Shown piece by piece: positions 23,655-52,337 of a DNA stretch of 64,000 nt. This DNA comes from Nodosilinea sp. E11 (GTDB lineage: Bacteria; Cyanobacteriota; Cyanobacteriia; Phormidesmidales; Phormidesmidaceae). The position numbers and the translations under genes were made by a program. Where the stretch lies: contig NZ_CP136514.1 in the NCBI RefSeq assembly GCF_032813545.1, positions 124,001-188,000 of the forward strand, in the 5' to 3' direction. Under the pieces are notes generated by a model. The model made no database searches, was not told where the DNA came from, and was given only the letters and a program-made list of their open reading frames with translations. Within the stretch, counting starts at the first letter, position 1, and each line of letters begins with the position of its first letter.

Positions 23655-25937
23655 CCTTATCCTCGTCTTTCAACCCTACTATTCTAAGGTCGATTAGCCG
23701 GACTTGATATAAGCGAGTTGAATGGTAATCTGCTCGCGTTGAGCGAGCGCCACCAACCGGTGCATGAATTGCGTCCGTCGAGAGTTGTTTTCGGGGCCAT
23801 TATCCGCGTTAATCACCCAACGACGAATGTGGGGGAACTGAGCTTTAACCTGCTGCCACCAGTCCTCTAATCGGTCGACGATGCAGTCTGCGGTCAGTTT
23901 TGACGTCACTAACGCCAATGAAAGTTGGTTGTATTGGGGCAGAAAAATGCCAAACGGGGTCACGGTGGCGGTGGGCTTAAAATCGTGGTCAGCCGCTCGA
24001 GAGCTAACCCGACTTTTTCCCCCCTCGGTCATAGTCGCCGACCTTGACCGTCGCTTTGGCATCAATGGAGAGCCGCAGGGTGTGGGCATCAGCATCGGCG
24101 GCTTGGTTGACCCGATTCACTTCGCTAAAAATCGCCTCGGTTTCAGCAATCACCTTTTGAGGCTTGGTCTTAGCAACCCGCTTCAGGCGATAGCCCAACT
24201 GATTTAATCGCTGGCGGATCACTTCGTCACTCGGTAGCTCAGCATCGCTATAGCCTTTTTGCGCCATCAACTGGCGGCGCACCTCAGGCGCACTCAGACG
24301 GGTGTACAGCCGCTGACTGGTGAGCGTTGGGTCAGCTTGGGTTTGAGGCTCGACAATCGCCTGAATATCAGACAGCAATTGGGGCAGTTTAGCTTCTACG
24401 GGCTTGCGACCCCGCTGAGCAAAGGCATCCTCAATTGGGCCGTGGTTCAGTTCAAAAAGGCCTTTTCGAACCGTGCCCCGATTCCAGCCCAACTCCCGTT
24501 CGGCTTTCACGGCCCCGCCGCGACCCAGCGATTGAACCACTTGCGCCATAAACTGTCGGCGCTCTGTTCCTTTCAGTCGGGTTGCAGTGTCTTTCAATAA
24601 CGCCTTGAGGCTATCGGTTAACACTAGAGGGGCATCATCCATCATCTAAGTGGGAGAACAGCACAGGTCTTGCCTAATCTAATGGATGATCATTTACATG
24701 GGCTACTCTAACGTAGCGTCAGAGACCGATTCCGAGGCCCCCCAGGCGATTGAGATTTGTCGGGGCTATTCGAGAGACCATCGCCCCGACTTGAAGCAGT
24801 TTTTGGTCAATTTGATTTGTACGGCCGAAGGTGGCATTCCGGTGTGGTTTAAGGTCGGCAGCGGTAATGAGACTGACAGTCAGACCTTTGCGGGGCTGAT
24901 GGCAGCGTTTGCTGAGCAATGGGAGACGCCTGCGCTGATGGTGGCTGATGCAGCGTTTTATAGCGAACCTAACCTCCAGGCAGTAGGGAGTTTGCCGTGG
25001 TTGAGCCGGGTGCCTGTGACCCTCAAGGCTGCTCAAACCCTGGTCGATAGTAGCGTTGACTCCTTGATGGAGATGCCCTGTGAGCTGGAGGGCTATCGGC
25101 TATGGGAGCAACGGCAGACCTACGGCGGGGTGGAGCAGCGCTGGATTCTGGTGGAAAGCCCACACCGTCGTGAGTCGGACGATTGGCTAAAGCCCCTCGA
25201 AAAGGAGAAAAAGGGGCTGCAACGGCAGTTGCAACAGCTGTGCAGCCAGACCTTTGCCTGTAAGCCCGATGCCATGGAGGCGCTGATGCGCTTTCAGGAC
25301 ACCCTCACCGGCTACAAGCTCACTCAAGTCGCGCTGGTGCCGGTTGCCGCCAAGCACCCCCCCGGCCGGCCCAAGCGCGCTAACCCGTCAGAGCCAGCCA
25401 CGATAGGGTATCAGTGGCAAGCGACCCTGGAGCGCACCGCTGAGTACGAGGCCCAGTGCCGACAGCGCCATCGTCGTTTCATCCTGGCGACCAATGTCCT
25501 GGACGCGCAGGCCTATCCTGCCGAACGGCTGCTGCGCGAGTACAAGGAGCAGCAGCAGGTCGAGCGCGGCTTTCGTTTCCTCAAAGACCCCCTCTTCTTC
25601 ACCAGTAGTGTCTTTGTCAAAAAGCCCCAACGGGTCGAAGCTCTCGCCCTCGTGATGGCCTTGACTCTGCTGGTCTACAGCCTCGGTCAGCGCCAGCTCA
25701 GAGCCCAATTGGCTCAAGCGGGTGAAACGGTGCTTGACCAAAAGAAACGCCCGACGTCCATCCCAACCTTTCGCTGGATTTTGCAGACGTTCCAGGCGAT
25801 TCACCTCGTTTCGATAAACGCAGGTCAGCAGGTCAGCAACCTATCTGAGGAACGACGCAACATCATCCGTCTCATGGGCTTCCCGGCCTGCCGCTACTAT
25901 CTCCTAAATTAAGTCCTGTCAACCTGCGGAATGTCGG

Positions 25938-27419
25938 CTATAACGGCCAAGGCTGGGCCTGAATGCCTGCCCACTCGCTTAACTCGTTGCAGAGCCATTC
26001 AATTTCCCGACGAGTACTGTAGACGATAATCATTTGATCATTAGATGAGAAGTTCAAGTTGATTCGATAGCTGGTTCGGTTCGCCGCGCCAGCAGAAATT
26101 CCCATTAGTTCTCCTTGGAGAATTACAATTTTTTCCCCACCTTTTAGCCGGTCGAAAGTAACAAAGACTGTCCTATCTTTTTTTTGAAATGCAATATTAG
26201 CACTAGTATTATTGAATGAACCTCTAACGTTCATCAAGAACACATCAAGCACTTTCCTTGGGCTTGACCCTTTGAGCACTATAACTATAAGAATTGGGAG
26301 AATTGGAAGAAATGGAAGAAATGGAAGAACCGCAGTAAGCAACATAAGAAACAAAGTAAACAGAAAATCTATAAAAAACATTGCAAACGTTATTAAGGCT
26401 AGTGCTAGATAAGTCCAGAACAGTAAGTTGTCATTCACGCCTGGAAAGGTATATAGAATTTGATTTAGTGGTACTCTTAGTTGAAGAGTGGTTTGAGTTG
26501 CCTTCAGGGAAATAGAGGAGGAGGAGGGACGTGTTGTTGTACCTAAGAAAAGTTTCTGTACGGTTAAGGTCACTTTTGGCTCTTGACGAGGCTTGAGAAA
26601 ATGTAGCCTTGCGTCTTGTGCTGATGCCGATCTTTTGGCTAGGCTTGGGTTTGTTAGCCACTCAATCCAACTGATGAAAGGCTCGCTGAGGGTTGTCAAA
26701 TGCTTAAATTCGACGTGTAAATCGTTCTGAGTCAAATCAGCAGGATGTTGACCTGTCGCCAAATAAATTAAAGTCATACCGACACCATACAAATCGGATG
26801 CGGGTAACGATCGGCCACCAAATTGTTCGGGTGGCATATAACCATAGGTGCCAACCACTGTTACCGTGCCACCATGAGCGGCTGTTTGTGCCGAGCCAAA
26901 ATCAATCAGATAAACGTTACCAAGACTATTGCCACTACGGTTTTTGAGCAACACATTGCTCGGTTTAATATCACGATGAATGACAGGCGGCTGAAGTCGA
27001 TGAAAGTACTCCAAGATGTCTATTAAGTCTTTAGCAATTGCCGTTAATTCTGCTTCACTAAACCTGCGTCCGTCCTGTATCCATTGTTGAAGTGAGCGTG
27101 CCTCAATGTAACTTTGTACCAGCGCAAAACCCTTGCAAAACTCGGTTTTAATCTCAAAAAAATCAAGGTGTTGGGGTATTGCTGGGTGATTAAGAGCTTT
27201 GAGGGTTTCTGCCTCTCGTTCAAATAATTTCAAATCCTCCCAGGTAAAATCTGGGCTAAACAGTAAGAGTTTAATGACAACAGGCAATTGGTTTTTTAAA
27301 TCGTGCGCCAGAAGCGTTTGCCGTCCAGGCTTGCGACCCAGCAGTGCTTGAATTTGATAGCGATCGTACAAGATTTGATTGACGAACGGACTGTCAGCAC
27401 TGCCATCGAACTCGACCAT
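25938..27419 (-). CDS. Membrane serine/threonine protein kinase, paralog 1
   Basis: Hanks-type kinase of 493 residues. The N-terminal catalytic domain (about 15-275) shows lysine in VVIKLLLF, catalytic loop HRDIKPSNVLLKN, DFGSAQ, and GTYGYMPPEQF. The glycine loop is unusual (LLGRKPGRQT instead of GxGxxGxV). Two or more hydrophobic segments lie around 330-385 (WTYLALALITFAMFFIDFLF; LPILPILIVIVL), followed by a C-terminal domain ending WLCNELSEWAGIQ, shared by all three paralogs. The kinase probably faces the cytoplasm, anchored in the membrane. ATG is preceded by AAAAAGGTTTACCA, conserved in all three copies. Its stop codon abuts the IS1634 end. It is the most downstream of three tandem copies, 63 bp after paralog 2. 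Substrates are unknown. Confidence 0.92.
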   Translation of the reverse strand: MVEFDGSADSPFVNQILYDRYQIQALLGRKPGRQTLLAHDLKNQLPVVIKLLLFSPDFTWEDLKLFEREAETLKALNHPAIPQHLDFFEIKTEFCKGFALVQSYIEARSLQQWIQDGRRFSEAELTAIAKDLIDILEYFHRLQPPVIHRDIKPSNVLLKNRSGNSLGNVYLIDFGSAQTAAHGGTVTVVGTYGYMPPEQFGGRSLPASDLYGVGMTLIYLATGQHPADLTQNDLHVEFKHLTTLSEPFISWIEWLTNPSLAKRSASAQDARLHFLKPRQEPKVTLTVQKLFLGTTTRPSSSSISLKATQTTLQLRVPLNQILYTFPGVNDNLLFWTYLALALITFAMFFIDFLFTLFLMLLTAVLPFLPFLPILPILIVIVLKGSSPRKVLDVFLMNVRGSFNNTSANIAFQKKDRTVFVTFDRLKGGEKIVILQGELMGISAGAANRTSYRINLNFSSNDQMIIVYSTRREIEWLCNELSEWAGIQAQPWPL

Positions 27420-27424
27420 TGGTA

Positions 27425-27493
27425 AACCTTTTTGAGGTGATTGAAGTAGATCAATGTCAGCGGTTACTCAAACCTTACCCACTCAAAAAGGTT
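27425..27493. repeat. 12-bp inverted repeat across the kinase 1/2 spacer
   Basis: AACCTTTTTGAG at 27425-27436 (leader of paralog 1) is perfectly complementary to CTCAAAAAGGTT at 27482-27493, which overlaps the last codons of paralog 2 and gives it a QPF C-terminus unlike its relatives. It could be a terminator-like structure or a rearrangement junction. Confidence 0.45.
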
Positions 27494-28994
27494 GCCTCCA
27501 AGGCATTTTTTGAATACCTGTCCACTTGCTTAACTCACTGCTGAGCCATTCAATTTCCCGATGAACGCCTTCGATGGTAATCATTTGATCATTATCTGGA
27601 AAGTACAAGCCGAGTTGATATCTGAAATAAAAATTATTGTTGGTCTGGATCGGTTCGTCATTAGAAATGCCTATCAGTCTTCCTTGACAAATTACAGTTT
27701 TTTCCACACCTTTTAGCAGGTTGAGAGTGACAACAACTTCCCTATCTTTTTTTTGAAATGTAACATTAGCACTAGTATTGGGTAAACCTCTAGCATTTTC
27801 AAAGCGATTGCCAAGCGCTTTCGCTAGTCTTGGAACTTGAAATGTAGGTAATATCTTAGAAAAAGATATCAGAAAGCCTACAACCAGAAACGGCAAAGCA
27901 AGACAAAATTTGCTGATAGGTGTTTCAAAGAAAGGCAGTGAGACTAGTTCTAGATAAGCGGGGAACATCAGGAGGACTAGTGGTAGATAAGCCCAAAACT
28001 GCATGATGTCATTCATACCCGGAAAGAAATATCGAATTTGCGTTAATGGTACTTTTAGTTGAAGAGTGGTTTGAGTTATCTCCAGGGAAATAGAGGAGGA
28101 GGGATGTGTTGTTATACCCAAGTGTTTTGTTTGTCTGATCAATGCCGCTTTTGGCTCTTGGCGAGGCTTAAGAAAGTGTAGCCTTGCGTCTTGTGCTGTT
28201 GCCGGTCTTTTGGTTATGCTTGGGTCTGTTAGCCACTCAATCCAACTGATGAAAGGTCCGCTGAGGGTTGTCAAGTGCTTAAATTCGACGTGTAAATCGT
28301 TCTGAGTCAAATCAGCAGGATGTTGACCTGTCGCCAAATAAATTAAGGTCATACCGACACCATACAAATCGGATGCGGGTAACGATCGGCCACCAAATTG
28401 TTCGGGTGGCATATAACCATAGGTGCCAACTACTGTTACCGTGCCACCATGAGCGGCTGTTTGTGCCGAACCAAAATCAATCAGATAAATCTCACCAGGA
28501 CTATTGCCACTACGGTTTTTGAGCAACACATTGCTCGGCTTAATATCACGATGAATGACAGGCGGCTGAAGGCGATGAAGGTACTCCAAGATGTCTATTA
28601 AGGCTTTGACAATTGCCATTAATTCTGCTTCGCTAAACCTGCATCCGTCCTGTATCCATTGTTGAAGTGAGCGAGCCTCAATGTAACTTTGCACCAGCGC
28701 AAAACCCTTGCCAAACTCAATTTTCACCTCAAAAAAATCAAGGTACTGGGGTATCGCTGGATGAGCAAGAGCTTTTAGGATTTCTGCCTCGCGCTCAAAT
28801 AATTTCAAATCCTCCCAGGTAAAATCTGGGCTAAATAGTAAGAGTTTAATGACAACAGGCAATTGGTTTTGTAAATCGAGGGCCAAAAACGTTTGCCGTC
28901 CAGGTTTGCGACCTAGGAGTGCTTGAATTTGATAGCGATCCTGCAAGATTTGGTTTACAAACGGACTGTCAGTACTGCCATCGAACTCGGCCAT
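27483..28994 (-). CDS. Membrane serine/threonine protein kinase, paralog 2
   Basis: 503-residue paralog of the neighbouring kinases with all catalytic motifs intact (VVIKLL, HRDIKPSNVLLKN, IDFGSAQ, GTYGYMPPEQF). The kinase domain is nearly identical to paralogs 1 and 3, while the membrane and C-terminal parts diverge more, as if the sensory half were under separate selection. Hydrophobic segments lie at about residues 330-390 (FWAYLPLVLLMFPAYLELV; FCLALPFLVVGFLISF). The C-terminus ends QKMPWRQPF, altered by the inverted repeat. Only about 20 bp of the common leader precede the ATG before a Tn3-transposase scrap begins, so the original promoter seems lost or replaced. Confidence 0.92.
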   Translation of the reverse strand: MAEFDGSTDSPFVNQILQDRYQIQALLGRKPGRQTFLALDLQNQLPVVIKLLLFSPDFTWEDLKLFEREAEILKALAHPAIPQYLDFFEVKIEFGKGFALVQSYIEARSLQQWIQDGCRFSEAELMAIVKALIDILEYLHRLQPPVIHRDIKPSNVLLKNRSGNSPGEIYLIDFGSAQTAAHGGTVTVVGTYGYMPPEQFGGRSLPASDLYGVGMTLIYLATGQHPADLTQNDLHVEFKHLTTLSGPFISWIEWLTDPSITKRPATAQDARLHFLKPRQEPKAALIRQTKHLGITTHPSSSISLEITQTTLQLKVPLTQIRYFFPGMNDIMQFWAYLPLVLLMFPAYLELVSLPFFETPISKFCLALPFLVVGFLISFSKILPTFQVPRLAKALGNRFENARGLPNTSANVTFQKKDREVVVTLNLLKGVEKTVICQGRLIGISNDEPIQTNNNFYFRYQLGLYFPDNDQMITIEGVHREIEWLSSELSKWTGIQKMPWRQPF

Positions 28995-29011
28995 TGGTAA
29001 ACCTTTTTGAG

Positions 29012-29189
29012 CTGAACACTACGGATGCCTTTGGCATCTTTGCATCAAAGGTACCCAACTTCATGGGGCTCACCCCCGAGATCAGCAATCAATATGCACG
29101 GTTGATCGCGAACGCTGTCATCTACTACAACCCTGCCATTCTGTCGCGCCTACTCACCAAGTACGAGGTCAGTGGGAATGCGAAAGCAT
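29012..29189 (+). pseudogene. Tn3-family transposase C-terminal scrap, copy 1
   Basis: The frame reads ASKVPNFMGLTPEISNQYAR, then LIANAVIYYNPAILSRLLTK. The pattern SNQ-ARLIANA-IYYN-AILSRLLTKYE-SGNAKA is a C-terminal signature of Tn3-family TnpA. Homology stops after AKA, where element R begins shortly after. It lies head-to-head just upstream of kinase paralog 2. Confidence 0.7.
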
Positions 29190-29202
29190 CAGGGAGGGCG
29201 GC

Positions 29203-29233
29203 GTGGGTTGAGTAGTTGCCTGCGCGCGCAGCT
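29203..29233 (+). repeat. Element R, truncated copy R0
   Basis: GTGGGTTGAGTAGTTGCCTG followed by CGCGCGCAGCT matches the first 30 bases of the longer repeats at 31479, 36202 and 37885. The copy breaks off into unrelated sequence at about 29233. Confidence 0.65.
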
Positions 29234-29235
29234 AT

Positions 29236-29640
29236 CCAGCCAACACAAAGAAACTAAATGAGCCAAAATCGCAGCTTCACTACTTTGGGCCCTATCCCGT
29301 GGGCAATCAGACACACCTCTGGCTACACTTGGCCAGCAGTACACCTGGGGGCTACAGCAGCGGTGAGCAATTTGCTATCACTAGCAATACAGATCACAGC
29401 ACAGCACAGGCGCTCACCTCGACTACCGGGTTAAAAGAGTTGGCCAGCGGTGAATGGGTCAGGCATTATGCTGACGTGCTACATCTACCGCTCAACCCTA
29501 ATGCCGCGATCGCGCAGTCTAGCCCCACTATTGACACGCCCGGCATGGTGGAGCTTATAAAAAGCTTTGAAGGATTCCATCCCAAAGCCTTAGTAGGACT
29601 GCCAGCAATGGCGCTAGAGTTTTGGTACCCGCATCCCTGA
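29236..29640 (+). pseudogene. Truncated GH24 lysozyme-like fragment
   Basis: The open frame reads SQLHYFGPYPVGNQTHLWLH..., then a short linker and MVELIKSFEGFHPKA. IKSFEGFxPKA is the start of phage-type (GH24) lysozyme domains and contains the catalytic Glu, but the following GxGT and Thr-Asp regions are missing: the frame ends EFWYPHP at a TGA. An in-frame GTG at 29299 is one possible start. The first half of unknown fold looks like a linker or cell-wall-related domain. The fragment lies between kinase units and was probably truncated by the rearrangements. The remaining 29641-29766 shows nothing recognisable. Confidence 0.45.
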
Positions 29641-29766
29641 CCAGTACAGCACCATCGACCAGGTCGCTGCAGCGTGAGCTACTGGCTTACCTGGAGCGAA
29701 ACTGCCTACCCGCAACGCGCCCTTGGGACTTGCCGATCCCTAGTCTGCTGCCCTAGCCAGCTTCTG

Positions 29767-31275
29767 CTATAACGTCCAAGACTTGGCCTGGATGCCTGCC
29801 CAATCGCTTAACCCATTGCAGAGCCATTCGATTTCCTGACGATCGCCATCGACGACAATCATTTGGTCATCAGATAGGAATTTTAAGCTGAGCCGATAGC
29901 GGGTCAAGGTCTCCGCGTCAACAGAAATACCTACTAGTCTGTCTTGAAAAACTACAGGCGACTCCACACTTTCTAGCAGGTTAAGAGTAACAATAACTGC
30001 CCTATTCTTTTTTTGAAGTGTAATATTAGTACTAGTATTGGGTAAAACTCTAGCACTTGCAAAGCGATGACCCAGCGCTTCGCCTTGACTTGAAATTTGA
30101 CGTCTAGGTTGTTGCATTAAAAACGTTATCCTAGAACCTACTAGTAAACCTAAAGCCAGAAACAATAATGTAACCCAAAACTTGTTGAAAGGTGTTGCAA
30201 AAAACGGCAGTGAGACTAGCTCTAGATAAGATAATAAAATCATTGAAGCTAGTGCTAAATAAGTCCATAATGCCTGATTTCTATTGCTATCTAAAGCTGT
30301 AAAGATATACTGGATTTGCCTTGATGGTACTTTTAGTTGGAGAGTGGTTTGAGTTGCTTTCACGAAAATAGAGGATGAGGATGGACGTGTTGTTGTCCCT
30401 AAGTGGTTTTTTTGTTTGGTCAATGCCGCTTTTGGCTCTTGATGAGGCTTGAGAAGGTGTAGCCTTGCGTCTTGTGCTGATTCCGGTCTTTTAGCTAGAC
30501 TTGGGTTCGTTAGCCACTCGATCCAATCAATGAAAGACTCGCTGAGGGATGTCAAATGCTTAAATTCGACGTGTAAATCGTTCTGAGTCAAATCAGCAGG
30601 ATGTTGACCTGTCGCCAAATAAATTAAAGTCATACCGACACCATACAAATCGGATGCGGGTAACGATCGGCCACCAAATTGTTCGGGTGGCATATAACCA
30701 TAGGTGCCAACCACTGTTACCGTGCCACCATGAGCGGCTGTTTGTACCGAGCCAAAATCAATCAGATAAACCTCACCAGGGCTATTGCCGCTGCGGTTTT
30801 TGAGCAACACGTTGCTCGGCTTAATATCGCGGTGAATGATAGGCGGTTGAAGGCGGTAAAGATACTCCAAAATATCTAGCAAATCTTTAGCAATTGCCGT
30901 TAATTCTGCTTCACTAAATCTGCATCCGTCCTGTACCCATTGTTGGAGCGAGCGAGCCTCAATATAACTTTGTACCAGCGCAAAACCCTTGCCGAACTCG
31001 ATTTCTACTTCAAAAAAATCAAGGTTTTGGGGTATCGATGGATGATCAAGAGCTTTAAGGGTTTCTGCTTCGCGCTCAAATAATTTCAAATCCTCCCAGG
31101 TAAAATCTGGGCTAAATAGTAAGAGTTTAATGACAACAGGCAATTGGTTTTGTAAATCGTGCGCCAAAAACGTTTGCCGTCCGGGTTTGCGACCTAGCAT
31201 TGCTCGAATTTGATAGCGATCCTGCAAGATTTGGTTTACAAACGGACTGTCAGCACTGCCATCGAAATCGGCCAT
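29767..31275 (-). CDS. Membrane serine/threonine protein kinase, paralog 3
   Basis: 502-residue third paralog. Motifs are VVIKLLLF, HRDIKPSNVLLKN, IDFGSVQ and GTYGYMPPEQF, with the same odd glycine loop LGRKPGRQT. Hydrophobic helices near residues 330-395 (LWTYLALASMILLSYLELV; FWVTLLFLALGLLVG) are followed by a C-terminal domain ending WLCNGLSDWAGIQAKSWTL. The duplicated unit includes the kinase, its short leader, a Tn3 scrap and the start of element R, so paralogs 2 and 3 arose by duplication of a segment of about 1.75 kb. The region between units contains the lysozyme fragment. Confidence 0.92.
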   Translation of the reverse strand: MADFDGSADSPFVNQILQDRYQIRAMLGRKPGRQTFLAHDLQNQLPVVIKLLLFSPDFTWEDLKLFEREAETLKALDHPSIPQNLDFFEVEIEFGKGFALVQSYIEARSLQQWVQDGCRFSEAELTAIAKDLLDILEYLYRLQPPIIHRDIKPSNVLLKNRSGNSPGEVYLIDFGSVQTAAHGGTVTVVGTYGYMPPEQFGGRSLPASDLYGVGMTLIYLATGQHPADLTQNDLHVEFKHLTSLSESFIDWIEWLTNPSLAKRPESAQDARLHLLKPHQEPKAALTKQKNHLGTTTRPSSSSIFVKATQTTLQLKVPSRQIQYIFTALDSNRNQALWTYLALASMILLSYLELVSLPFFATPFNKFWVTLLFLALGLLVGSRITFLMQQPRRQISSQGEALGHRFASARVLPNTSTNITLQKKNRAVIVTLNLLESVESPVVFQDRLVGISVDAETLTRYRLSLKFLSDDQMIVVDGDRQEIEWLCNGLSDWAGIQAKSWTL

Positions 31276-31292
31276 TGGTAAACCTTTTTGAT

Positions 31293-31470
31293 CTCAACGA
31301 TACGGATGCTGTTGGCATCTTTGCATCAAAGGTACCCAGCTTTATGGGGTTCACCCCTGAGATCAGCAATCAATGTGCACGGTTACCGAGAACTCTGTCA
31401 CTTACTACAACCCCACCATTCTGTCGCGTCTACTCACCAAGTACGAGGTCAGTGGGGATGCAAAAGCATC
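31293..31470 (+). pseudogene. Tn3-family transposase C-terminal scrap, copy 2
   Basis: Second copy of the scrap found at 29012, beginning LNDTDAVGIFASKVPSFMG and later SVTYYNPTILSRLLTKYEVS, with a frameshift after NQCARL. It is more decayed than copy 1 and sits in the same position relative to kinase paralog 3. Confidence 0.65.
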
Positions 31471-31478
31471 AGGGCGGC

Positions 31479-31655
31479 GTGGGTTGAGTAGTTGCCTGCT
31501 CGCGCAACTAGCCGAACTGGCTTACCCCACCCCTATCGCCACAGGAGACCCTGCATAGCTGCGTGGTTATTGTCCAGCACTGGACAGATTTTGGAACGTT
31601 TCACGAAAGAGCTGCCGAGAGAGATTATGGTGCCACTCTGCGGCGCGGGCAACTA
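31479..31655 (+). repeat. Element R, copy R1 (two-hairpin repeat)
   Basis: Repeat of about 170 bp. Features are GTGGGTTGAG at the left edge, the inverted repeat TAGTTGC / GCAACTA (31489-31495, 31504-31510), CTGGCTTAC, a second hairpin TGTCCAG-CA-CTGGACA (31571-31586), and the conserved block GGAACGTTTCACGAAAG followed by CTGCCGAGAGAGATT. It shares this order with R2 and R3, in the same orientation. No open frame is conserved among the copies. Confidence 0.7.
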
Positions 31656-31838
31656 GCCTAGGCAATTCTACTATTCTTAAAGCTCTTCGTAGCCGAGAGT
31701 GCACGCCACAATTGTCGCCTGGTTCTTGCTTGTCGACATTGCACTCACTTAGGGACACTATGGACAACTTATGCCTAGAGATAGATGAATTCCTCCTGAG
31801 ACTAATTATGCTAACAGCAGTAAAGGACTTTATAAAGT

Positions 31839-32138
31839 GTGAGTGCTGTGGCTTTTCATCAAAACTATTTAGGGATTGAGCAGCCTGCCGTTGGTCAACT
31901 GATTCGAGAGCTTCGGCAAACCTTAAAACTGACCCAGGAGAAGTTTGCGGCTCAACTTGGAGTCTCCTTTCCTACCATCAATCGTTGGGAAAACGGACAT
32001 GCCACCCCTTCTCCCTTAGCACTCAGACAAATTGAAACTTTGCTGAACCAGTTAGTAGAGTCACCTAATGGAGCCCTACGGGAGCGCAGTCGGGCAATCC
32101 AAGGAAAATACTTGCCCTCAAGGATGCTAAAAGCATGA
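31839..32138 (+). CDS. XRE-family helix-turn-helix regulator (99 aa)
   Basis: Small DNA-binding protein with a Cro/CI-type HTH at about residues 18-75: IRELRQTLKLTQEKFAAQLG, then SFPTINRWENGHATPSP. The start is GTG 31839, with AGGA about 11 bases upstream. The stop TGA overlaps the ATG of the downstream hybrid kinase (ATGA at 32135-32138), so translation is probably coupled. The kinase lacks a DNA-binding output, so this regulator is a natural candidate partner, although no receiver domain is present and any link would be indirect. About 200 bp upstream lies element R1. Confidence 0.88.
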   Translation: MSAVAFHQNYLGIEQPAVGQLIRELRQTLKLTQEKFAAQLGVSFPTINRWENGHATPSPLALRQIETLLNQLVESPNGALRERSRAIQGKYLPSRMLKA

Positions 32139-35100
32139 GGGCAGAGCAACATCAGGCGATGCCCGACAAGCCTTTTAAAGGCGGTGATGAGATAGAAACA
32201 CTCCTGCGATCGCACGATTGGTCACAAACGCCTCTAGGGGCGATCGAAACCTGGACGGACAGCTTGAAAGCGGCAGCGCAAATTCTGTTGACTGAACTCA
32301 ATCAAGCTCAAAACCCAGAACCGATGCTGGCTGCATCGGTTCTGCCATCACAGAATTGCACCCAAACAGCTACCTTACGCCAAGCGGCCCAATCCAATGC
32401 GTTTCGGGTCACCCTTGCCGAGGCACTGCGCCCGCTAACCGATGCTGATGAGATTCAAGCCACCGCTGCCCGGATTCTGGGCGAACACTTAGGGGCTAGC
32501 CGCGTCATCTATGCTGAAGTATTGCCGGGCGGCAAGGACGTAATTGTCCATAAAAACTATATAAATGGTGTTGCCGAGCTGAGCGGGCAATATTGTTTAG
32601 ACGAGTTTGGACGTAATTTGACCGATGACCATCGAGCGGGGCGAACGGCGATCGTTCCCAATGTAGCGAACTCCCTCAGATATACAAACCGCGAAAAGGC
32701 CATGTATCGGGCGATCGATATTGCGGCACATCTCGATGTTCCCCTGATCAAAAAGGATCAATTCGTGGCGCTGCTGGCGGTTCATCAGGCAACCCCGCGG
32801 CAATGGACAGAGGGCGAGGTGAAATGGGTTGAAGAGACAGCAGAGCAGACCTGGGCAACGGTTGAACGTGCCCGTGCTGAAGCCGCGCTACGTAAATCTG
32901 AAGCGAAATATCGCACGGTGTTCGAGTCGATTGACGAAGGCTTTTGCACCATTGAAGTGCTCTTCGATGCCGATGGCAAGCCAGTTGATCACCAGATTTT
33001 GCAAGCGAATCCTGCCTTCAAGCGGCAATCTGGTATTGCTAACCTAGAAGGCAAAAGGGCAAGCGAACTGGTACCGGGGCAAGAACAGTATTGGAATGAC
33101 CTTTACGCTCAAGTCATTCACACCGGTGAGTCCATCCGCACTGAAGAGCGAGCTGACGCGCTTGATCGCTGGTTCGACGTTTTGGTTTCACGGATCGGCG
33201 ATGCCGCAATGCGTCAGGTAGCGATCGTATCGACTGATATCAGCGCTCGCAAACGAGCGGAAAATACGGTGCAACAAACCTCTGCTGAACTCGAACGACA
33301 AGTGCGAAAGTGGGACGCGATCGCCGCTACCGTCCCCGATTTTATTTATACCTTCGATTTGTCTGGACGATTCACTTACATTAGTCAAGCGTTACTCGAC
33401 CTGTGGCAAAAAGCATCGGCTGAAGCACTGGGAAAAAACTTTTTTGAGTTAGATTACCCCGAAGATTTAGCGGCTCGATTGCAACATCAGATTCAGCAAG
33501 TGATCGAGACGCGCCAACCGCTTAAAGATGAAATGCCTTACACGAGCGCGATTGAAACCAGAGCCTACGAGTATATTTTTGCGCCAATGTTTGATGCGAC
33601 TGGCGCAGTCGAGGCCGTCGCAGGAGTAACGCGAGATATCACCGATCGCAAACAGGCAGAAGCAGCGTTGCGGCAAACCTCAGCCGACCTCGAACGTCAA
33701 GTGCGAAAGTTTGATGCAACGCTTTCGACCCTCACTGAATTGATATTTAGCTTTGATCAAGATGGGCGGTTTCTTTACGTCAATCAAGAATTGCTCGACT
33801 TGTGGGGAATCACTGCAGCAGAGGCGATTGGCAAGACAATGGCTGAACTTGATTATCCCCCAGCCGTTGAGCAGCAAGTGCTGAACGATATGCGACGAGT
33901 CTTTAAGACCGGAGATACCGTTAAAAACGAAGCTGCCTACACTAATCCAGCCGGAGTCGAGGGCTACTTTGAATATATTTTGAGCCCAGTGTTTGCCGCC
34001 GATGACACCGTAGAATCTGTTGTCGGTTCATCTCGCGACACCAGCGAACGCAAACGGATGGAGATTGCTCTGCGGGAAAACGAGGAGCGTTTCCGCACTC
34101 TGGCAGATAATATGTCTCAATTCGCCTGGATGGCAGACGAGGCTGGTTGGATCTTCTGGTACAACCAGCGCTGGTTCGACTACACGGGAACGACCTTAGA
34201 GGAGATGCAGGGTTGGGGCTGGCAACAGGTGCATCATCCGGATCATGTCGATTGCGTGGTTGAGCATTTCCGCTACTGTCTTGAAACGGGTGAGCAATGG
34301 GAAGACACCTTTCCGCTCCGAAGCAGAGACGGAACCTATCGTTGGTTTCTGTCTCGTGCCATCCCGATCCGAGATGAGCAAGGACAGATTTTGCGCTGGT
34401 TTGGCACGAACACTGATATTACCGATCTCAAACAGGCAGAAGCCAACCTGCAAGAGAGTGAAGAACTGAAGCGACGCATTCTAGAAAGCAGTCAAGACTG
34501 CATCAAAGTTTTAACGTTAGAGGGACGACTTCTCTACCTAAATGTAGGCGGATTGGATCTCCTAGAAATTGACGATCCGGCCTCTGTTTTGAACAGCCAA
34601 TGGCTCGATTTCTGGAAAAACGAAGACCGCCAAAGTGCAGAAGCCGCGCTTGCATCTGCCCAAGCAGGCAATGCCGGTCAACTTCAAGGCTGCTGCCCCA
34701 CGGCAAAGGGCAACTTGAGGTGGTGGGATGTCATCGTCACTCCCATCCGAGATGCATCGGGAAGGGTTGCACAACTGTTATCAATCTCGCGCGACATCAC
34801 AAAGCAAAAGCAAGCTGAATCAGAACAAGAGCACCTGCTAAAGCGAGAACAAGCGGCACGAGAAGAAGCAGAACGCGCCAACCGGATCAAAGACGAATTT
34901 TTGGCAGTGCTGTCCCACGAGTTGCGATCGCCCCTGAATCCAATTTTGGGCTGGACACAACTGCTGCGAAACGGTAAACTCGCCTCCTCCCGTCAAATGG
35001 ATGCCTTAGCCACGATTGAGCGCAACGCCAAACTACAATCGCAACTAATTGAGGACTTGCTTGACGTTTCCCGCATCATGCAGGGCAAGCTCACTTTAAC

Positions 35101-36025
35101 AGCCGCTCCAGTTAGTTTGGCATTTGTCATTGCTGCTGCCGTTGAAACCGTGAGGTTAGCGGCAGACGCGAAAAATATTCAAATCACACTTGATCTTGAC
35201 CCAAACGTTGCTCCGGTCTCGGGCGATGCTGCTCGACTGCAACAAATAGTCTGGAACCTGCTCAGCAATGCGGTCAAGTTCACAGACAATGGTGGACAGG
35301 TAACGGTTCAACTACGGCAAGTCGCTGCCGCAGGCAGGGGAAATGCGGTGGCCCAAATTCGAGTTATCGATACGGGTAAAGGAATCAGCCCGCAATTTCT
35401 GCCCCATGTGTTTGAGTATTTTCGCCAAGAAGACGGCTCCACGACTCGCAAATTTGGCGGTCTGGGATTGGGACTAGCGATCGTGCGGCAAATTGCGGAA
35501 TTGCACGGCGGTAAGGTCAACGCAGAGAGCAGCGGTGAGCATCAAGGTGCGACCTTCATCGTGCAGCTACCGGCTCTGCCTCAGGCACCGCCGATCCTTT
35601 TTGAACAAAACCAGCTTCAATCCGCTTCAGAAACACGCTTAGACAACGTGCAAATTTTGCTCGTTGAGGACGATGCCGATGCTCGTGAGTTTCAGGCTTT
35701 CCTGCTGGAGCAGCACGGGGCAACCGTAGCAGCCGTTGCTTCAGGTGTAGAAGCGCTGCAAACGTTAGAGCAGCTTATTCCAGATGTGATTGTCAGCGAT
35801 ATTGGCATGGCAGACATGGATGGCTACAGGCTAATGCAGCAGATTCGCTCGCGTCCACCCGCTCAGGGAGGGACGGTGCCAGCGATCGCGCTCACGGCTT
35901 ATGCCGCCGAAATCGATCAAAAGAGAGCCCTCGAAGTTGGCTTTCAAACACACTTGACGAAACCGTTAGAGCCAGAACGATTCGTCAGCGAGATTGTAAC
36001 CCTGCTCAAGCCCAAGCGAGTCTAG
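32135..36025 (+). CDS. GAF/PAS hybrid histidine kinase (1296 aa)
   Basis: Cytosolic hybrid sensor kinase. After an N-terminal segment (SHDWSQTPLGAIETW, a PAS-like signature) comes a GAF domain (about 90-245, LRPLTDADEIQATAARILGE). Five PAS/PAC modules follow (about 255-900), then HisKA (LSHELRSPLNPILGW, His near 926), HATPase (LLSNAVKFTDNGG near 1036, GLGLGLAIV) and a receiver (LLVEDDADARE near 1174, acceptor in VSDIGMADMDG near 1221, KPLEPE). It is coupled by a 4-bp overlap to the upstream XRE regulator. It differs from the kinases at 2.8-21 kb in its LRSPLNPILGW H-box and GAF input, so it belongs to another subfamily. Confidence 0.92.
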   Translation: MRAEQHQAMPDKPFKGGDEIETLLRSHDWSQTPLGAIETWTDSLKAAAQILLTELNQAQNPEPMLAASVLPSQNCTQTATLRQAAQSNAFRVTLAEALRPLTDADEIQATAARILGEHLGASRVIYAEVLPGGKDVIVHKNYINGVAELSGQYCLDEFGRNLTDDHRAGRTAIVPNVANSLRYTNREKAMYRAIDIAAHLDVPLIKKDQFVALLAVHQATPRQWTEGEVKWVEETAEQTWATVERARAEAALRKSEAKYRTVFESIDEGFCTIEVLFDADGKPVDHQILQANPAFKRQSGIANLEGKRASELVPGQEQYWNDLYAQVIHTGESIRTEERADALDRWFDVLVSRIGDAAMRQVAIVSTDISARKRAENTVQQTSAELERQVRKWDAIAATVPDFIYTFDLSGRFTYISQALLDLWQKASAEALGKNFFELDYPEDLAARLQHQIQQVIETRQPLKDEMPYTSAIETRAYEYIFAPMFDATGAVEAVAGVTRDITDRKQAEAALRQTSADLERQVRKFDATLSTLTELIFSFDQDGRFLYVNQELLDLWGITAAEAIGKTMAELDYPPAVEQQVLNDMRRVFKTGDTVKNEAAYTNPAGVEGYFEYILSPVFAADDTVESVVGSSRDTSERKRMEIALRENEERFRTLADNMSQFAWMADEAGWIFWYNQRWFDYTGTTLEEMQGWGWQQVHHPDHVDCVVEHFRYCLETGEQWEDTFPLRSRDGTYRWFLSRAIPIRDEQGQILRWFGTNTDITDLKQAEANLQESEELKRRILESSQDCIKVLTLEGRLLYLNVGGLDLLEIDDPASVLNSQWLDFWKNEDRQSAEAALASAQAGNAGQLQGCCPTAKGNLRWWDVIVTPIRDASGRVAQLLSISRDITKQKQAESEQEHLLKREQAAREEAERANRIKDEFLAVLSHELRSPLNPILGWTQLLRNGKLASSRQMDALATIERNAKLQSQLIEDLLDVSRIMQGKLTLTAAPVSLAFVIAAAVETVRLAADAKNIQITLDLDPNVAPVSGDAARLQQIVWNLLSNAVKFTDNGGQVTVQLRQVAAAGRGNAVAQIRVIDTGKGISPQFLPHVFEYFRQEDGSTTRKFGGLGLGLAIVRQIAELHGGKVNAESSGEHQGATFIVQLPALPQAPPILFEQNQLQSASETRLDNVQILLVEDDADAREFQAFLLEQHGATVAAVASGVEALQTLEQLIPDVIVSDIGMADMDGYRLMQQIRSRPPAQGGTVPAIALTAYAAEIDQKRALEVGFQTHLTKPLEPERFVSEIVTLLKPKRV

Positions 36026-36029
36026 AGAT

Positions 36030-36189
36030 GGTGCATTTTCACAAGCGGTGCCAATTCGGCTAGCTCGACCTTCTCCACTAACACCACCATCAACCCCAAG
36101 TGCTTCAGCTTCTCGATCTTTAACGCGCGTTCCCAATGCTAGCTGCACACTCTATTCAATCTTCATTTCGTTAAGCTGCAGAATGTCGG
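36030..36189 (-). mobile_element. Truncated IS1634 end with transposase N-terminus
   Basis: Reading inward from 36189 gives CCGACATTCTGCAGCTTAAC, close to the IS1634 end at 21740 (CCGACATTCCGCAGGTTGAC). The coding strand then continues KIEKLKHLGLMVVLVEKVEL, matching KIENLDHLGLVAALVDEIGM of that element. It is cut off at about 36030, immediately after the kinase stop. Confidence 0.65.
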
Positions 36190-36201
36190 GTTAAGGGTAT
36201 G

Positions 36202-36366
36202 GTGGCCTAAGCTAGTTGCCTGCGCGCGCAGCTCGCCGATCTGGCTTACGCTGATGCACCTAGAGGGTAATTGTCCTACGTGGTGTAGGACAAAGTTTGG
36301 AACGTTTCACGAAAGGGCTGCCGAGAGAGATTGTGATGCTGCTTTGTAGCATGGGGCAGCTACTCC
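36202..36366 (+). repeat. Element R, copy R2
   Basis: Shares TAGTTGCCTGCGCGCGCA, CTGGCTTAC, TAATTGTCC and GGAACGTTTCACGAAAG with R1. Its second hairpin is the strongest, with a 9-bp perfect stem TTGTCCTAC / GTAGGACAA (36271-36279, 36285-36293) and a 5-base loop. Stem bases differ from R1 and R3 but stay paired. The sequence 36367-36586 shows no further gene. Confidence 0.7.
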
Positions 36367-36586
36367 AGGCCAATATGGCCTGATCAGGGCTACTCCCAAG
36401 CGCTGGAGCCGTGGGGAACAAACACTCCATTAGTGTAGTGAGTTCATTTTGATCTTTGAAATCTCGGAGGGCTCAAAATAGGGCGCTAAAGCAAGCTAAA
36501 GCTGAAATACCCTAGGCTGACGTTTTTTTGACCACCCCCAGCCGTATCATGCCCCTATTCTTAAGAAGTTCTCAACGGAACAATTG

Positions 36587-37747
36587 ATGCGATTGGCAGA
36601 ATTCATTCTTGGGAACATCGAGCCCATTCTCGTGGACTGGGAAGCGTTTGCACGTAGTCTCGCGCCTGGGATGAAGATGACTAAACTCGCCCTGCGTGAC
36701 GACGCCGAGGGGATGTTGCGGGGGACGGCGCTGGACATGCAGACCGGCCAAAGCCTTGCCCAGCAGTCGAGCAAGTCTAAAGGCCACGGCGGCGCTGGTA
36801 GCGAGGAGAGCGACCCGCTCGACCATGCCTCGGTACTGCACGGCGCGGCCCGTGTGGGCTCGGGTTTTGACATTATGGAGGTCGTCTCTGAATACCGCGC
36901 CCTACGCGCCAGCGTGCTCCGCCTGTGGCGTTTGAGCTGCCCGCAGATCGACATCAACGACCTCGACGACATCACCCGATTCAACGAGTCGATCGATCAA
37001 TCGCTCACCGCAGCCGTTGGCAGTTACACCGATCGCGTCGATCAGTCACGGCGCATGTTTCTGGCAATCCTCAGTCATGACCTACGCAACCCGCTGAACT
37101 GCATCAGCATGGCTACACAACTTGTCTTGCGCACTGCAAATCAAGACTCAGGCTCTGCCAAAACGCTGTCGATAATCGAGAAGAACACGGAGGTGGTCAC
37201 ACGGTTGATGGACGACCTGATTGACTTCGCCTCGACGGGGATAGGCAGCGCAATGCCGCTAACGCGCGATGCGGTCGATCTGGAAAAACTTTGTCGCAAC
37301 GTCTTTGAAGGATTCTGCCTTGCCTACCCTCAGCGTACGCTGCGCTTTCACTCGGCTGACGACCTCATAGGCGACTGGGATGCGGCCCGGCTCCGCCAGG
37401 TCGTCTCCAACCTGATGGGTAACGCGATGCAGCACAGGTCAGCTGAGGAACCGGTAGAACTATCGGTCACCTCAGAAGGATCTACCGTGGTCTTGAGCGT
37501 ACATAACCAAGGGTCGCCAATCCCGCCAGAGATGCTGGACACAATCTTCGATCCGCTCATGCGCCACATCATGCCAGAATCGACAGCGCAGCGCGTTCCG
37601 GGTAGCATCGGGCTGGGGTTGTACATTGTGCACGAAATTGTCGTTGCCCACGGAGGAACGGTAGAGGTCGCTTCGACGGCGGCAGAGGGCACAACGTTTA
37701 CCGTCCGCCTACCGCAGCTACGTCCGGTTGAGGGCAATCGTCAGTAA
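36587..37747 (+). CDS. RsbRD-like N-terminal histidine kinase (386 aa)
   Basis: Sensor kinase without membrane segments or receiver. An all-helical N-terminus (about 1-145, LAEFILGNIEPILVDWEAFA... SGFDIMEVVSEYRALRASVL) resembles the RsbRD sensory domain. HisKA follows with FLAILSHDLRNPLNCISMA (His near 166), then HATPase with NLMGNAMQH, a variant G1 region (SVHNQGSPIP instead of DxGxG), and IGLGLYIVHEIV. ATG 36587 was chosen over the in-frame TTG 36584; the ribosome-binding site is weak. The H-box HDLRNPLN and the N-terminal domain are commoner in proteobacteria than in the multi-PAS kinases here, so horizontal transfer is possible. It is flanked on both sides by element R. Confidence 0.85.
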   Translation: MRLAEFILGNIEPILVDWEAFARSLAPGMKMTKLALRDDAEGMLRGTALDMQTGQSLAQQSSKSKGHGGAGSEESDPLDHASVLHGAARVGSGFDIMEVVSEYRALRASVLRLWRLSCPQIDINDLDDITRFNESIDQSLTAAVGSYTDRVDQSRRMFLAILSHDLRNPLNCISMATQLVLRTANQDSGSAKTLSIIEKNTEVVTRLMDDLIDFASTGIGSAMPLTRDAVDLEKLCRNVFEGFCLAYPQRTLRFHSADDLIGDWDAARLRQVVSNLMGNAMQHRSAEEPVELSVTSEGSTVVLSVHNQGSPIPPEMLDTIFDPLMRHIMPESTAQRVPGSIGLGLYIVHEIVVAHGGTVEVASTAAEGTTFTVRLPQLRPVEGNRQ

Positions 37748-37884
37748 GCCTAGGGTGCTGCTGCATCAAACGGCGTCAAATTCACGCGTTTTAACTTTGA
37801 ACGGACAGAATGACACTGCTGGGAGGTAGCTGAGGTGACATCGATTAAGCCGAGTGCGCAAGGAGCTTAACCTGCTGAAGGCTT

Positions 37885-38058
37885 GTGGGTTGAGTAGTTG
37901 CCTGCACGCGCAACTACCCTTTCTGGCTTACCTTACACCTATGCCCATAGGAGGCCCTGACGTAGCTGCGTGGTAATTGTCCAGCGCAGTGTTGGACAAA
38001 TTTTGGTACGTTGCACGAAAGATCTGCCGAGAGATTGTGCTGCTGCCCTGATGCGCGG
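37885..38058 (+). repeat. Element R, copy R3
   Basis: Starts GTGGGTTGAGTAGTTGCCTG and shares CTGGCTTAC, GTAGCTGCGTGGTAATTGTC, the ACGTTGCACGAAAG variant and CTGCCGAGAGATTGTG with R1. The second hairpin is TTGTCCA / TGGACAA (37977-37983, 37993-37999). The copy lies between the RsbRD kinase and the convergent response regulator gene. Confidence 0.7.
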
Positions 38059-38114
38059 ATAATCATACATAGAATCACATTAGAGCAGCAGATTTAGCAA
38101 GAGATGTAACTGGG

Positions 38115-38798
38115 CTAGTCTTTAATCGAAGAGGTCAGCATCCGATATCCCATGCCCCGTATGGTCTCAATGCAATCGCTGTAGAGCTTCTTGCGCAAAT
38201 AGCCCACATAGACATCCACAATGTTAGAACCCGGATCATAGTCATAGCCCCACACTAGGTCGAGCAATTGCTCTCGACTAAGCACCTGCCCGGCATGGCG
38301 CATGAAGGTTTCGGTCAGGATAAATTCTCGGGCTGACAGATCGACTAGTTTGCCTGAAACCTGCACTTGCCGGGTGAGCCGATCTAGCACAATGGGGCCG
38401 ATGGTTAGAATGTTGTCGTTTGAGGTTCCTGCCGGTTGAATATTGCGCAGCCGGGCTTTGACCCTGGCCAGCAATTCTTCAAACCGAAAGGGCTTGGTGA
38501 CGTAATCGTCGGCTCCGGCTTCGAACCCATTCACTTTGTCGTGGATGTCATCCCTTGCCGTAAGCACGATGATGGGCTGGCTAAAACCCTGTCCCCGTAG
38601 CTCATTCAACAGCACCATGCCGTCTTTATCAGGTAAGCCCAGGTCGAGAATCATCAGGTCAAAGTCGCCACTGAGGGCAAAGTCAGTAGCCTGAGCTGCG
38701 TTGACCGCATGGGTGGTAGTAAATCCGTTGGCCTGTAGCCCTTTGGCTAAAAATGAGACGATCCGGGGCTCGTCCTCCACAATTAAGATTCGGCTCAC
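38115..38798 (-). CDS. OmpR/PhoB-family response regulator
   Basis: 227-residue transcription factor. The receiver domain (1-118) has acidic residues in VEDEPRI, acceptor Asp in MILDLGLPDKDG, Thr in LTARDD and Lys in TKPFRF. A winged-helix DNA-binding domain (about 130-225) shows LSAREFILTETF and YVGYLRKKL, ending CIETIRGMGYRML. Its ATG overlaps the stop of the upstream sensor kinase by 4 bp, so the two form a two-component pair. It is the last gene of a seven-gene operon with glycosyltransferases and an ABC exporter, suggesting that the locus regulates itself. Confidence 0.95.
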   Translation of the reverse strand: MSRILIVEDEPRIVSFLAKGLQANGFTTTHAVNAAQATDFALSGDFDLMILDLGLPDKDGMVLLNELRGQGFSQPIIVLTARDDIHDKVNGFEAGADDYVTKPFRFEELLARVKARLRNIQPAGTSNDNILTIGPIVLDRLTRQVQVSGKLVDLSAREFILTETFMRHAGQVLSREQLLDLVWGYDYDPGSNIVDVYVGYLRKKLYSDCIETIRGMGYRMLTSSIKD

Positions 38799-52248: not shown

Positions 52249-52337
52249 CCAGCTAATTCTTAGCTAATGACCTACTTGTCAGACCCCGAGGGCGTCCCCG
52301 AAAATGGGGCTGAGGGTTATTCCTCCGCCGATGGTTT

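Follow-up and report, generated by a model that had tools for sequence, protein, structure and literature searches.

Element R marks joints between gene modules in Nodosilinea and shares the polarity of integron-type cassettes

Element R, a non-coding repeat of the cyanobacterium Nodosilinea, holds real joints between gene modules and marks modules that have been joined to new neighbors. R is also tied to integron-type cassette arrays, because adjacent copies share their orientation, because attC sites point the same way as R, and because some copies begin just after an attC site. We lean toward the explanation, which seems to us somewhat better than an even bet, that R is a repeat carried by cassettes, with ends that serve as secondary points of exchange, and that the copies described below are the joints of a relic array.

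The window is the whole stretch of DNA that we analyzed: 64,000 nucleotides from Nodosilinea sp. E11 (NZ_CP136514.1, positions 124,001 to 188,000). Its copies of R and the genes around them are as follows (gene assignments other than the transposase-like fragment are from Pfam).

27483..28994, minus strand: protein kinase paralog 2, part of a tandem duplicate unit
29107..29197, plus strand: C-terminal fragment resembling Tn3 transposase, left of R0; its duplicate at 31387-31477 is to the left of R1
29201..29238, plus strand: R0, consisting of the left-end palindrome (HP1) alone, with the Tn3-TnpA-like tail before it; profile score 28 bits
29767..31275, minus strand: protein kinase paralog 3, the module between R0 and R1
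31421..31702, plus strand: R1, long-core R, core at 31487-31655; profile score 225 bits
31839..32138, plus strand: XRE-type HTH gene, which opens the module between R1 and R2
32135..36025, plus strand: PAS/GAF hybrid histidine kinase, in the module between R1 and R2
36161..36411, plus strand: R2, a long-core copy that has an internal deletion (core at 36213-36363) and includes part of the right extension; profile score 180 bits
36584..37747, plus strand: histidine kinase (HisKA and HATPase), the module between R2 and R3
37809..38071, plus strand: R3, a copy that includes most of La (the left extension), with its core at 37893-38062; profile score 269 bits

A first-pass annotation had described four copies in the same orientation, starting at 29203, 31479, 36202, and 37885, and the repeat search, the profile, and BLAST all agree with this. 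It had also proposed that the copies share an ordered set of blocks. This holds for R1, R2, and R3, which are divergent copies of one element (R1 and R3 are 81% identical), but not for R0, which is the left-end palindrome alone. The direct-repeat families that make up R in the window each have a single orientation: 29195/31471/36195/37877 (43 nt, with the R2 member only 65% identical to the R0 reference), 31479/37885 (75 nt, 84%), 36251/37957 (78 nt, 78%), and 31582/36288/37994 (68 nt). The profile was built from 22 aligned copies that include R1, R2, and R3, so the scores in the window are partly by construction. Independently of the profile, a BLAST search of R1 against its own genome found R3 (E = 1.7e-39), R0 (E = 2.7e-11), and R2 in two pieces (E = 1.8e-13 and 1.1e-6), so the similarity of the copies is not due to chance. 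No additional copies were found in the 84 kb at C1:124001-208000 (C1 is the contig of the window).

As annotated at first, the modules hold a protein kinase, an XRE-type gene with a hybrid kinase, and a histidine kinase; for the last of these, first labeled RsbRD-like, no RsbRD domain was reported in 36584-37747 at E = 1e-3. The flanks to the left of R0 and R1 are also similar to each other (89% for 29107-29197/31387-31477, 83% for 28023-28102/30301-30380, and 89% for 28093-28392/30374-30673). Here a kinase gene and a Tn3-transposase-like tail have been duplicated in tandem, and the duplication lies outside R. (The transposase-like ORF at 28919-29215 matches Pfam only weakly, short of the cut-off.) In another Nodosilinea genome (G011, contig C6), a homologous unit of kinase plus TnpA tail likewise lies between two copies of R. 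None of the four R copies in the window is at an end of the recognized transposase gene at 24686-25912.

The long form of R comprises La (about 140 bp), a core, and a right extension. The core measures about 108 or 177 nt, its two ends are inverted relative to each other (TAGTTGCC...GGCAACTA), and R occurs in long (about 177 nt), short (about 108 nt), and minimal (25 nt) forms. The palindromic ends read GTTGCC...GGCAAC, and by eye many copies have a TA at either end. The left palindrome has a 7-8-7 architecture and in many copies overlaps a GTAG tetranucleotide; an inverted copy of the palindrome closes the element. R does not seem to be decayed coding sequence: the aligned copies differ by indels of 2 and 5 nt, which disrupt any common reading frame. 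Read backwards, the right extension resembles the end of a Trypco1 protein, and there are hits to PF19493 just beyond R in G019:C19 and G011:C6. We considered whether R might simply flank Trypco1 genes on their 3' side, but cores of R occur without Trypco1 and, counted by eye, some 43 of the 52 Trypco1 hits fall on contigs for which the search lists no R.

R is not confined to the window. It is present in 14 of 22 Nodosilinea congeners and, as far as we have seen, is restricted to this genus and its near kin. Copy numbers are low, with 1 to 22 matches per matching congener (22 in G011), clustered on a few contigs. In the genome of E11, most R is found on the contig that contains the window; this contig is 498 kb long and carries none of the 42 tRNAs that were found. 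A megablast search of a plasmid collection gave no match, and no stretches of viral contigs had the left-end pattern. A limited literature search, partly by title and the start of the abstract, found no earlier printed description of R or of integrons in Nodosilinea.

The link to integrons rests first on orientation. Adjacent copies of R have the same orientation in 55 cases and opposite orientations in 4; not all loci are independent, and leaving out the stretches from G011:C29, which is nearly identical to G017:C37, gives 49:4. Orientation is uniform in 22 of 26 R-bearing stretches, and the remaining 4 have one switch each. These single switches, together with a weak trend in GC skew (25 of 36 blocks, p = 0.03), leave room for replication-linked polarity.

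Second, we compared R to attC sites, whose R'' and R' boxes have the consensus RYYYAAC...GTTRRRY and whose arms pair. Our covariance model for attC has 10 rows, 7 of them from sites beside R. Covariation in the model is strong (20 pairs, 12 of which changed on both sides; none of 500 shuffles scored as high). All attC hits in R-bearing stretches were counted; 9 of 11 hits in one set of loci lie outside these stretches and were not. The orientation of attC matches that of the nearest R in 44 of 44 cases, or 44 of 47 if we include three weaker matches on the opposite strand at the same places. Among attC sites over 300 bp from any R, 27 of 27, in 7 stretches, share its orientation. Also, 17 of 91 copies of R start 2-51 bp after an attC (at 2 or about 48 bp), always in its orientation, although 7 of the 17 attC sites were in the search model. 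Random intergenic placement gave a mean of 1.09 such starts and a maximum of 5 in 500 trials. A narrower count without some weak attC hits gave 40 of 40 for orientation and 16 of 91 copies, versus 0.17 expected under uniform placement. By eye, the two spacings fit the short and full forms of La. Since these 17 copies start at the crossover boxes of different attC sites, always in their orientation, R behaves there as the leading part of cassettes. The other 74 copies do not begin after an attC, and neither do R0 to R3 in the window.

The genome of E11 has attC sites in at least 16 places, 15 of them at E ≤ 1.8e-6 and 4 of them in the model; this is a lower bound because only 150 of 2,235 candidates were scored. 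It also encodes an intact integron integrase (C7:51091-52029; 466 bits versus a cut-off of 265), which is on C7 and not on the contig of the window, and three attC sites lie 1.3-3.9 kb from it. Within the window, the covariance model that reports the 15 good sites found no attC. (A home-made attC scorer, which did not separate the window from shuffled sequence, was superseded by this model.) In R-bearing stretches, no attC hit overlaps a profile hit of R, so R itself does not qualify as an attC site. Thirteen congeners were searched for the integrase, and there was none over the cut-off in the R-bearing genomes G003, G004, G007, G009, G010, or G011.

The evidence for module joints comes from comparing genomes. 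The clearest case is a module of 3,574 bp (95.6% identity between G011 and G017) that ends inside R on both sides and has different neighbors in the two genomes; its left neighbor in G017 is found in G011 on another contig, beside another R. More generally, modules that diverged loci have in common often end in an R that both genomes possess. Of 215 internal ends of homologous segments, 14 fall inside R in both genomes, versus a mean of 0.54 and a maximum of 4 in 200 control placements, but the control is too lenient, because R was placed in each genome separately, and it overstates the enrichment. By our reading, these 14 ends represent some nine or ten separate joints. Types of flank are reassorted at the left palindrome, and at the ends of R left flanks are found with new right flanks (this analysis used 50 of 180 HP1 matches with up to 5 errors, excluding inverted-end matches and short flanks). 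The breakpoints are at the left palindrome and at core positions of about 121-174, and are mapped to no finer than 25-52 bp.

Breaks are not more frequent where R is present. Gaps with R break homology about as often (96 breaks and 16 passes) as gaps without it (161 and 29; Fisher p = 0.87), and length-matched comparisons agree (p = 1.0 and 0.65), so these regions are plastic everywhere. Unique segment ends are near R at the level of intergenic chance: 35 of 337, versus 35.2 expected (9.1 if placement were uniform); 183 of the ends are intergenic, and 33 of those are near R. In near-identical colinear loci (G017/G011 and G008/G011), 8-9 pairs of R copies are passed unbroken.

How might such joints arise? 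We favor the explanation that R travels with integron-type gene cassettes and that insertion by the integron set its polarity. Later exchange between copies of R, whether at the conserved left palindrome or in the right-end block, would have given modules new partners, and fragments of R of differing lengths may be its scars. The four copies in the window would be the joints of a relic array on a plasmid-like replicon, in which recognizable attC sites were lost or never present. The exchange was probably ordinary, with RecA-type or microhomology recombination between copies of R as the default. If this is true, the plasmid-like replicons of Nodosilinea contain arrays of integron origin where the joining of large signaling and metabolic modules is marked, and perhaps mediated, by a repeat other than attC, and these replicons would offer a concrete place to study the reshuffling of regulatory gene sets.

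Of the other explanations, the one that survives best, at roughly one chance in a handful, is that R is a MITE, a non-autonomous transposable element of the ordinary kind, and that the joints merely reflect its intergenic location in a plastic replicon. Like a MITE, R has terminal inverted repeats and long, short, and minimal forms. TA can be seen next to both ends of many copies. Its flanks are unrelated, and both the breakage of gaps and the positions of segment ends fit this account. However, we found no empty site among the stretches that we fetched (at one candidate, the other genome has a different spacer of 589 bp) and no proven target duplication, and the 55:4 polarity, the agreement with attC in orientation, and the fixed distance from attC in 17 copies also speak against a MITE.

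Two related proposals strike us as doubtful, and equally so. In one, R is a true site-specific recombination site: a recombinase (the integron integrase or a small plasmid tyrosine recombinase) would bind the left palindrome and the inverted right end, and would excise and insert modules in one orientation. The polarity of R, its two inverted simple sites around a variable middle, and the breakpoints at the left palindrome and in the core would suit this. By eye, small tyrosine recombinases (ORFs of about 180-210 amino acids) are also present on R-bearing contigs of G017 (C35, C36, C38, and C39), G011 (C24, C26, C27, and C28), and G004 (C16, C24, and C25). But these may just mark plasmids, as G019 has four on contigs without R and the R-bearing G009 shows none. 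Also, the crossover is located only to within 25-52 bp, the palindrome of R has GTT and AAC in the opposite order from attC, and no attC hit overlaps R. In the other proposal, R is a second, non-attC class of cassette site with two palindromic ends, on which the integron integrase or a small tyrosine recombinase encoded by a plasmid would act in one orientation; then large multi-gene modules of several kb, with genes on either strand, would shuffle among Nodosilinea plasmids alongside normal cassettes.

It is improbable that R is a structured RNA or a 3' element of mRNAs. R has hairpins, substitutions within the left palindrome leave G-T 63 times and A-C 13 times, and the upstream ORF is on the strand of R in 49 cases versus 16. 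But the G-T excess is mostly from two positions, and the strand bias is near that of adjacent ORFs (316:140), while downstream ORFs are unbiased (37:30). (L055, a duplicate of L060, was excluded from these ORF counts; both were kept for the orientation of R.) The covariation term is 0.07, with double changes in 4 of 26 pairs; z-scores for single-sequence folding are unremarkable (-0.66, -0.98, and -1.56); and Rfam gave no match (none at the gathering threshold over the window and none at E ≤ 1 for 31380-38120).

We give very little credence to R being a REP/REPIN mobilized by a RAYT transposase of the IS200 type: the overlap of the left palindrome with GTAG in many copies and the inverted copy at the end of the element speak for it, but R-bearing G007 and G010 and R-rich G011 have no Y1 transposase (PF01797, E ≤ 1e-5), matches do occur where no R was found (G006, G012, G013, G014, G016, G018, and G021), and part of the GTAG of R belongs to the stem, while in GTAG-REPs this tetranucleotide is unpaired (PMC3733652). 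The genome of E11 has 6 Y1 matches.

Overall, the cassette-like layout of the first-pass annotation is supported, given the polarity, the agreement with attC in orientation, and the spacing from attC, and R also holds real joints between modules. The suggestions of that annotation, those of a recombination site, in the strict sense, and of a repeated RNA fare worse, the former because R does not raise the breakage of gaps and no enzyme is tied to it. Nor is the cargo specific to signaling: elsewhere, R adjoins an ABC-transporter operon, a MarR/epimerase module, and amidase, subtilase, and GNAT genes.

Among the closest known systems are integron cassettes and CALINs, which are clusters of attC sites without an integrase. 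Like these, R forms polar arrays with modules joined in one orientation, has palindromic ends around a variable middle, and, with La, extends from the crossover box of an attC in 17 copies. Unlike these, R is not overlapped by attC, and the modules in the window reach 4.7 kb, are partly on the opposite strand, and lack a recognizable attC. GTAG-type REPs and REPINs (PMC3733652) share a short palindrome and an inverted pair at the two ends; R differs in its low copy number on few contigs, in the pairing of GTAG, and in having no consistent Y1 transposase. MITEs resemble R in being non-coding and intergenic, with inverted ends and internally deleted derivatives; its polarity and its link to attC set R apart, and no empty site or proven target duplication was found. 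Finally, the dRS3 repeats and minimal mobile elements of Neisseria are examples of repeats arranged in arrays, between which homologous recombination can swap gene modules. R similarly lies between exchangeable modules, in a different genus, with a different sequence, and with a link to integrons.

A repeat search of the window bore out the four copies of the non-coding repeat R, all in one orientation, where the first-pass annotation had placed them. The copies, the modules between them and a neighboring group of paralogs are as follows.

25938-31275 (-), tandem trio of protein-kinase paralogs, the last two with a Tn3-transposase-like tail
29201-29238 (+), R copy R0
R0 to R1, protein-kinase module
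31421-31702 (+), R copy R1
R1 to R2, XRE and hybrid histidine kinase module
36161-36411 (+), R copy R2
R2 to R3, histidine kinase module
37809-38071 (+), R copy R3

The annotation had also given all four copies one set of blocks. This holds for R1, R2, and R3, which scored 225, 180, and 269 bits against a profile of R, in part by construction, as these three are among the 22 aligned copies in the profile. R0, however, is the left-end palindrome alone, so its score is low (28 bits). By BLAST, R1 and R3 are 81% identical across about 170 bp (E = 1.7e-39). The similarity to the left of R0 and R1 is distinct from R: it consists of a protein-kinase gene duplicated in tandem and then a stretch that resembles the C terminus of a Tn3 transposase (PF01526, 19.5 bits, under the cut-off of 24).

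The core of R starts with the left palindrome (HP1), TAGTTGCCTGCGCGCGCAACTAGCC, and finishes with GGCAACTA. Cores are either long (about 177 nt) or short (about 108 nt), minimal copies are HP1 alone, and in many copies the core is extended on the left (La, about 140 bp) and on the right. In alignments of R, indels between copies disrupt any common reading frame. The fold predicted by RNAalifold has 26 pairs, with double changes in 4 and a covariation term of 0.07. Non-Watson-Crick cells in HP1 are G-T (63) or A-C (13), with two positions supplying most of them, and this asymmetry gives no firm claim on strand.

Within Nodosilinea sp. E11, BLAST with R1 matched 11 places: six on C1 (the 498-kb contig that contains the window), two on contig C2, and one each on contigs C3, C6, and C7. 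Those on C1 are R0, R1, R3, the two pieces of R2, and a copy at 88.6 kb; the matches on C3, C6, and C7 and one of the two on C2 are just 21-34 bp. R3 as the query matched a further place on C2, at 16.0 kb. All 42 of the tRNA matches reported for this genome are on C7, so C1 looks like a plasmid or chromid. C1 also carries a 1.44-kb repeat, which is probably an insertion sequence, with inverted copies at 52335-53774 and 57362-58797 of the window and two more at 108.5-118 kb of C1 (92-100%).

Among 22 congeners, 14 had BLAST matches to R at E ≤ 0.1 and 10 at E < 1e-10; outside the genus, 1 of 15 genomes had a weak match (E = 0.003), which is probably due to chance. The exact left-end pattern of R was found in 26 stretches of the genome collection and in none of the viral contigs. 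Twenty-three of these stretches are from records named Nodosilinea, Leptolyngbya, Phormidium tenue, Tildeniella, or "filamentous cyanobacterium"; the other three (L184, L189, and L195) are short MAG contigs labeled Halomonas, Puniceicoccaceae, and Ectothiorhodospiraceae, and may be misbinned cyanobacterial pieces.

R is polar. In a first count of 71 copies in 40 stretches, adjacent pairs were in the same orientation 39 times and opposite once, compared to 316:140 for adjacent ORFs; in a larger count of 91 copies, the ratio was 55:4. Orientation is uniform in 22 of the 26 stretches with at least two copies, and switches exactly once in the other 4. Gene strand does not explain this, as on average just 63% of the coding length near R is on R's strand. 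A link to replication is possible: of 36 blocks, 25 have positive GC skew along R's strand (p = 0.03) and 23 have positive intergenic skew (p = 0.13).

Full-length La starts at or near CGTTAGAC. Upstream of it are varied hairpin sequences that carry the boxes typical of attC (integron cassette recombination sites). We built a covariance model from ten sites, of which seven were taken from beside R: 86.7% of cells are paired, 12 pairs have double changes, and none of 500 shuffles was equally good. The model found no attC in the window. Among the 150 candidates scored, out of 2235, it placed attC at 16 or more places in the E11 genome, at least 15 of them at E ≤ 1.8e-6; four of the places are members of the model. 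An intact integron integrase (C7:51091-52029, 466 bits) has three attC 1.3-3.9 kb away (C7:53282, 54399, and 55890), and an integrase fragment at C7:994126 has three at 1.5-6 kb. The C7 integrase and its adjoining attC are a chromosomal integron.

R starts after an attC in 17 of 91 copies, 4 of them at a spacing of 2 bp and 13 at 47-51 bp; when R was placed at random in intergenic DNA, the mean was 1.09 copies and the maximum was 5 (500 runs). The count of 17 is biased upwards because 7 of these attC are model members that were picked for being beside R, but the ten non-model attC alone still exceed the control maximum. Across the R-bearing stretches analyzed, attC has the orientation of the nearest R in 44 of 44 cases. 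For attC over 300 bp from any R, the orientation agrees in 27 of 27 cases across 7 stretches, and this agreement is free of that selection bias.

Left and right flanks reassort at HP1. The TnpA-like tail is to the left of both R0 and R1, yet R1 has a long core and R0 a bare HP1; the right flank of R0 recurs on contig C36 of another genome, G017. A second left flank (1.9 kb at 91.8%) is common to the 88.6-kb copy on C1 and G017:C36; one of these pairs it with a long core, the other with an R0-type right flank. Across 1,225 HP1 pairs (from 50 copies, out of 180 looser matches), 106 shared the left flank only, 69 the right only, and 18 both. The clearest joint involves a module of 3,574 bp that carries MarR-like and epimerase-like genes. 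It is 95.6% identical between G011:C24 and G017:C38, and both ends of its homology fall within R. The module's left neighbor in G017 sits on C25 in G011 and on C4 in genome G008, where R adjoins it, followed by other DNA; here the left homology stops at about 174 of the core and the right begins at about 121. The R at the G017 joint differs in sequence type from those of G011 and G008, which calls for more than one exchange. As for the window's hybrid-kinase and histidine-kinase modules in congeners, G007 keeps their order with a different repeat between them that starts with the right half of HP1; the order is swapped in G017, and the hybrid-kinase module is inverted in G022.

Other repeats occur in these regions. 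Members of a second family are about 250-550 bp long, with a hairpin resembling a terminator nearby; they often follow HP1 and also occur without it:

L045, 15782-16034
L078, L082, and L058
G007:C524, 13135-13371

A different repeat, at about 24.94-25.04 kb of G011:C24 (16940-17040 of the stretch), about 100-300 of L043, and about 12.0-12.3 kb of G019:C38, ends (in G011:C24 and L043) with an R-like right-end hairpin, while its left part is unrelated to R. Upstream of one ABC-transporter operon, G011 has this repeat, whereas G008 and G004 have R.

Homology breaks in gaps with R (96 breaks against 16 passes) were not in excess over gaps without it (161 against 29; p = 0.87); these regions break everywhere, with or without R. 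Near R were 35 of 337 unique homologous-segment ends, versus 9 expected from uniform placement and 35 from intergenic placement. Ends fell within R in both genomes in 14 of 215 cases against a control mean of 0.54, but this control put R independently in each genome and so overstates the excess. For ends that had R no more than 400 bp away in each genome, 14 fell inside R, 10 stopped before reaching it, 2 lay past it, and 2 were mixed. At near-identical colinear loci, 8-9 R pairs were passed unbroken. Together, the gap, segment-end, and colinear counts therefore make R a frequent joint place rather than a demonstrated hot spot.

We take R to be a cassette-borne repeat. Integron insertion would give R its common orientation and its boundary at attC, and exchange between copies of R would leave scars of varied length and mosaic flanks. 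The main rival is that R is a transposon (a MITE). That R belongs to a dedicated site-specific recombination system seems improbable. In R-rich G011, no resolvase (PF00239) was found at E ≤ 1e-10. Small tyrosine recombinases (open frames of about 180-210 amino acids) are present on many small contigs in the genus, often ones with R, and those on R-bearing contigs are candidate enzymes, as a lead only. Examples are:

G000:C2:2806-3294
G000:C2:30568-31035
G017:C36:17382-17870

Movement of R by a RAYT is unlikely. The most fitting class for R is a new form of cassette-array repeat, restricted to the genus; the attC sites and the integrase are new examples of an already known type.
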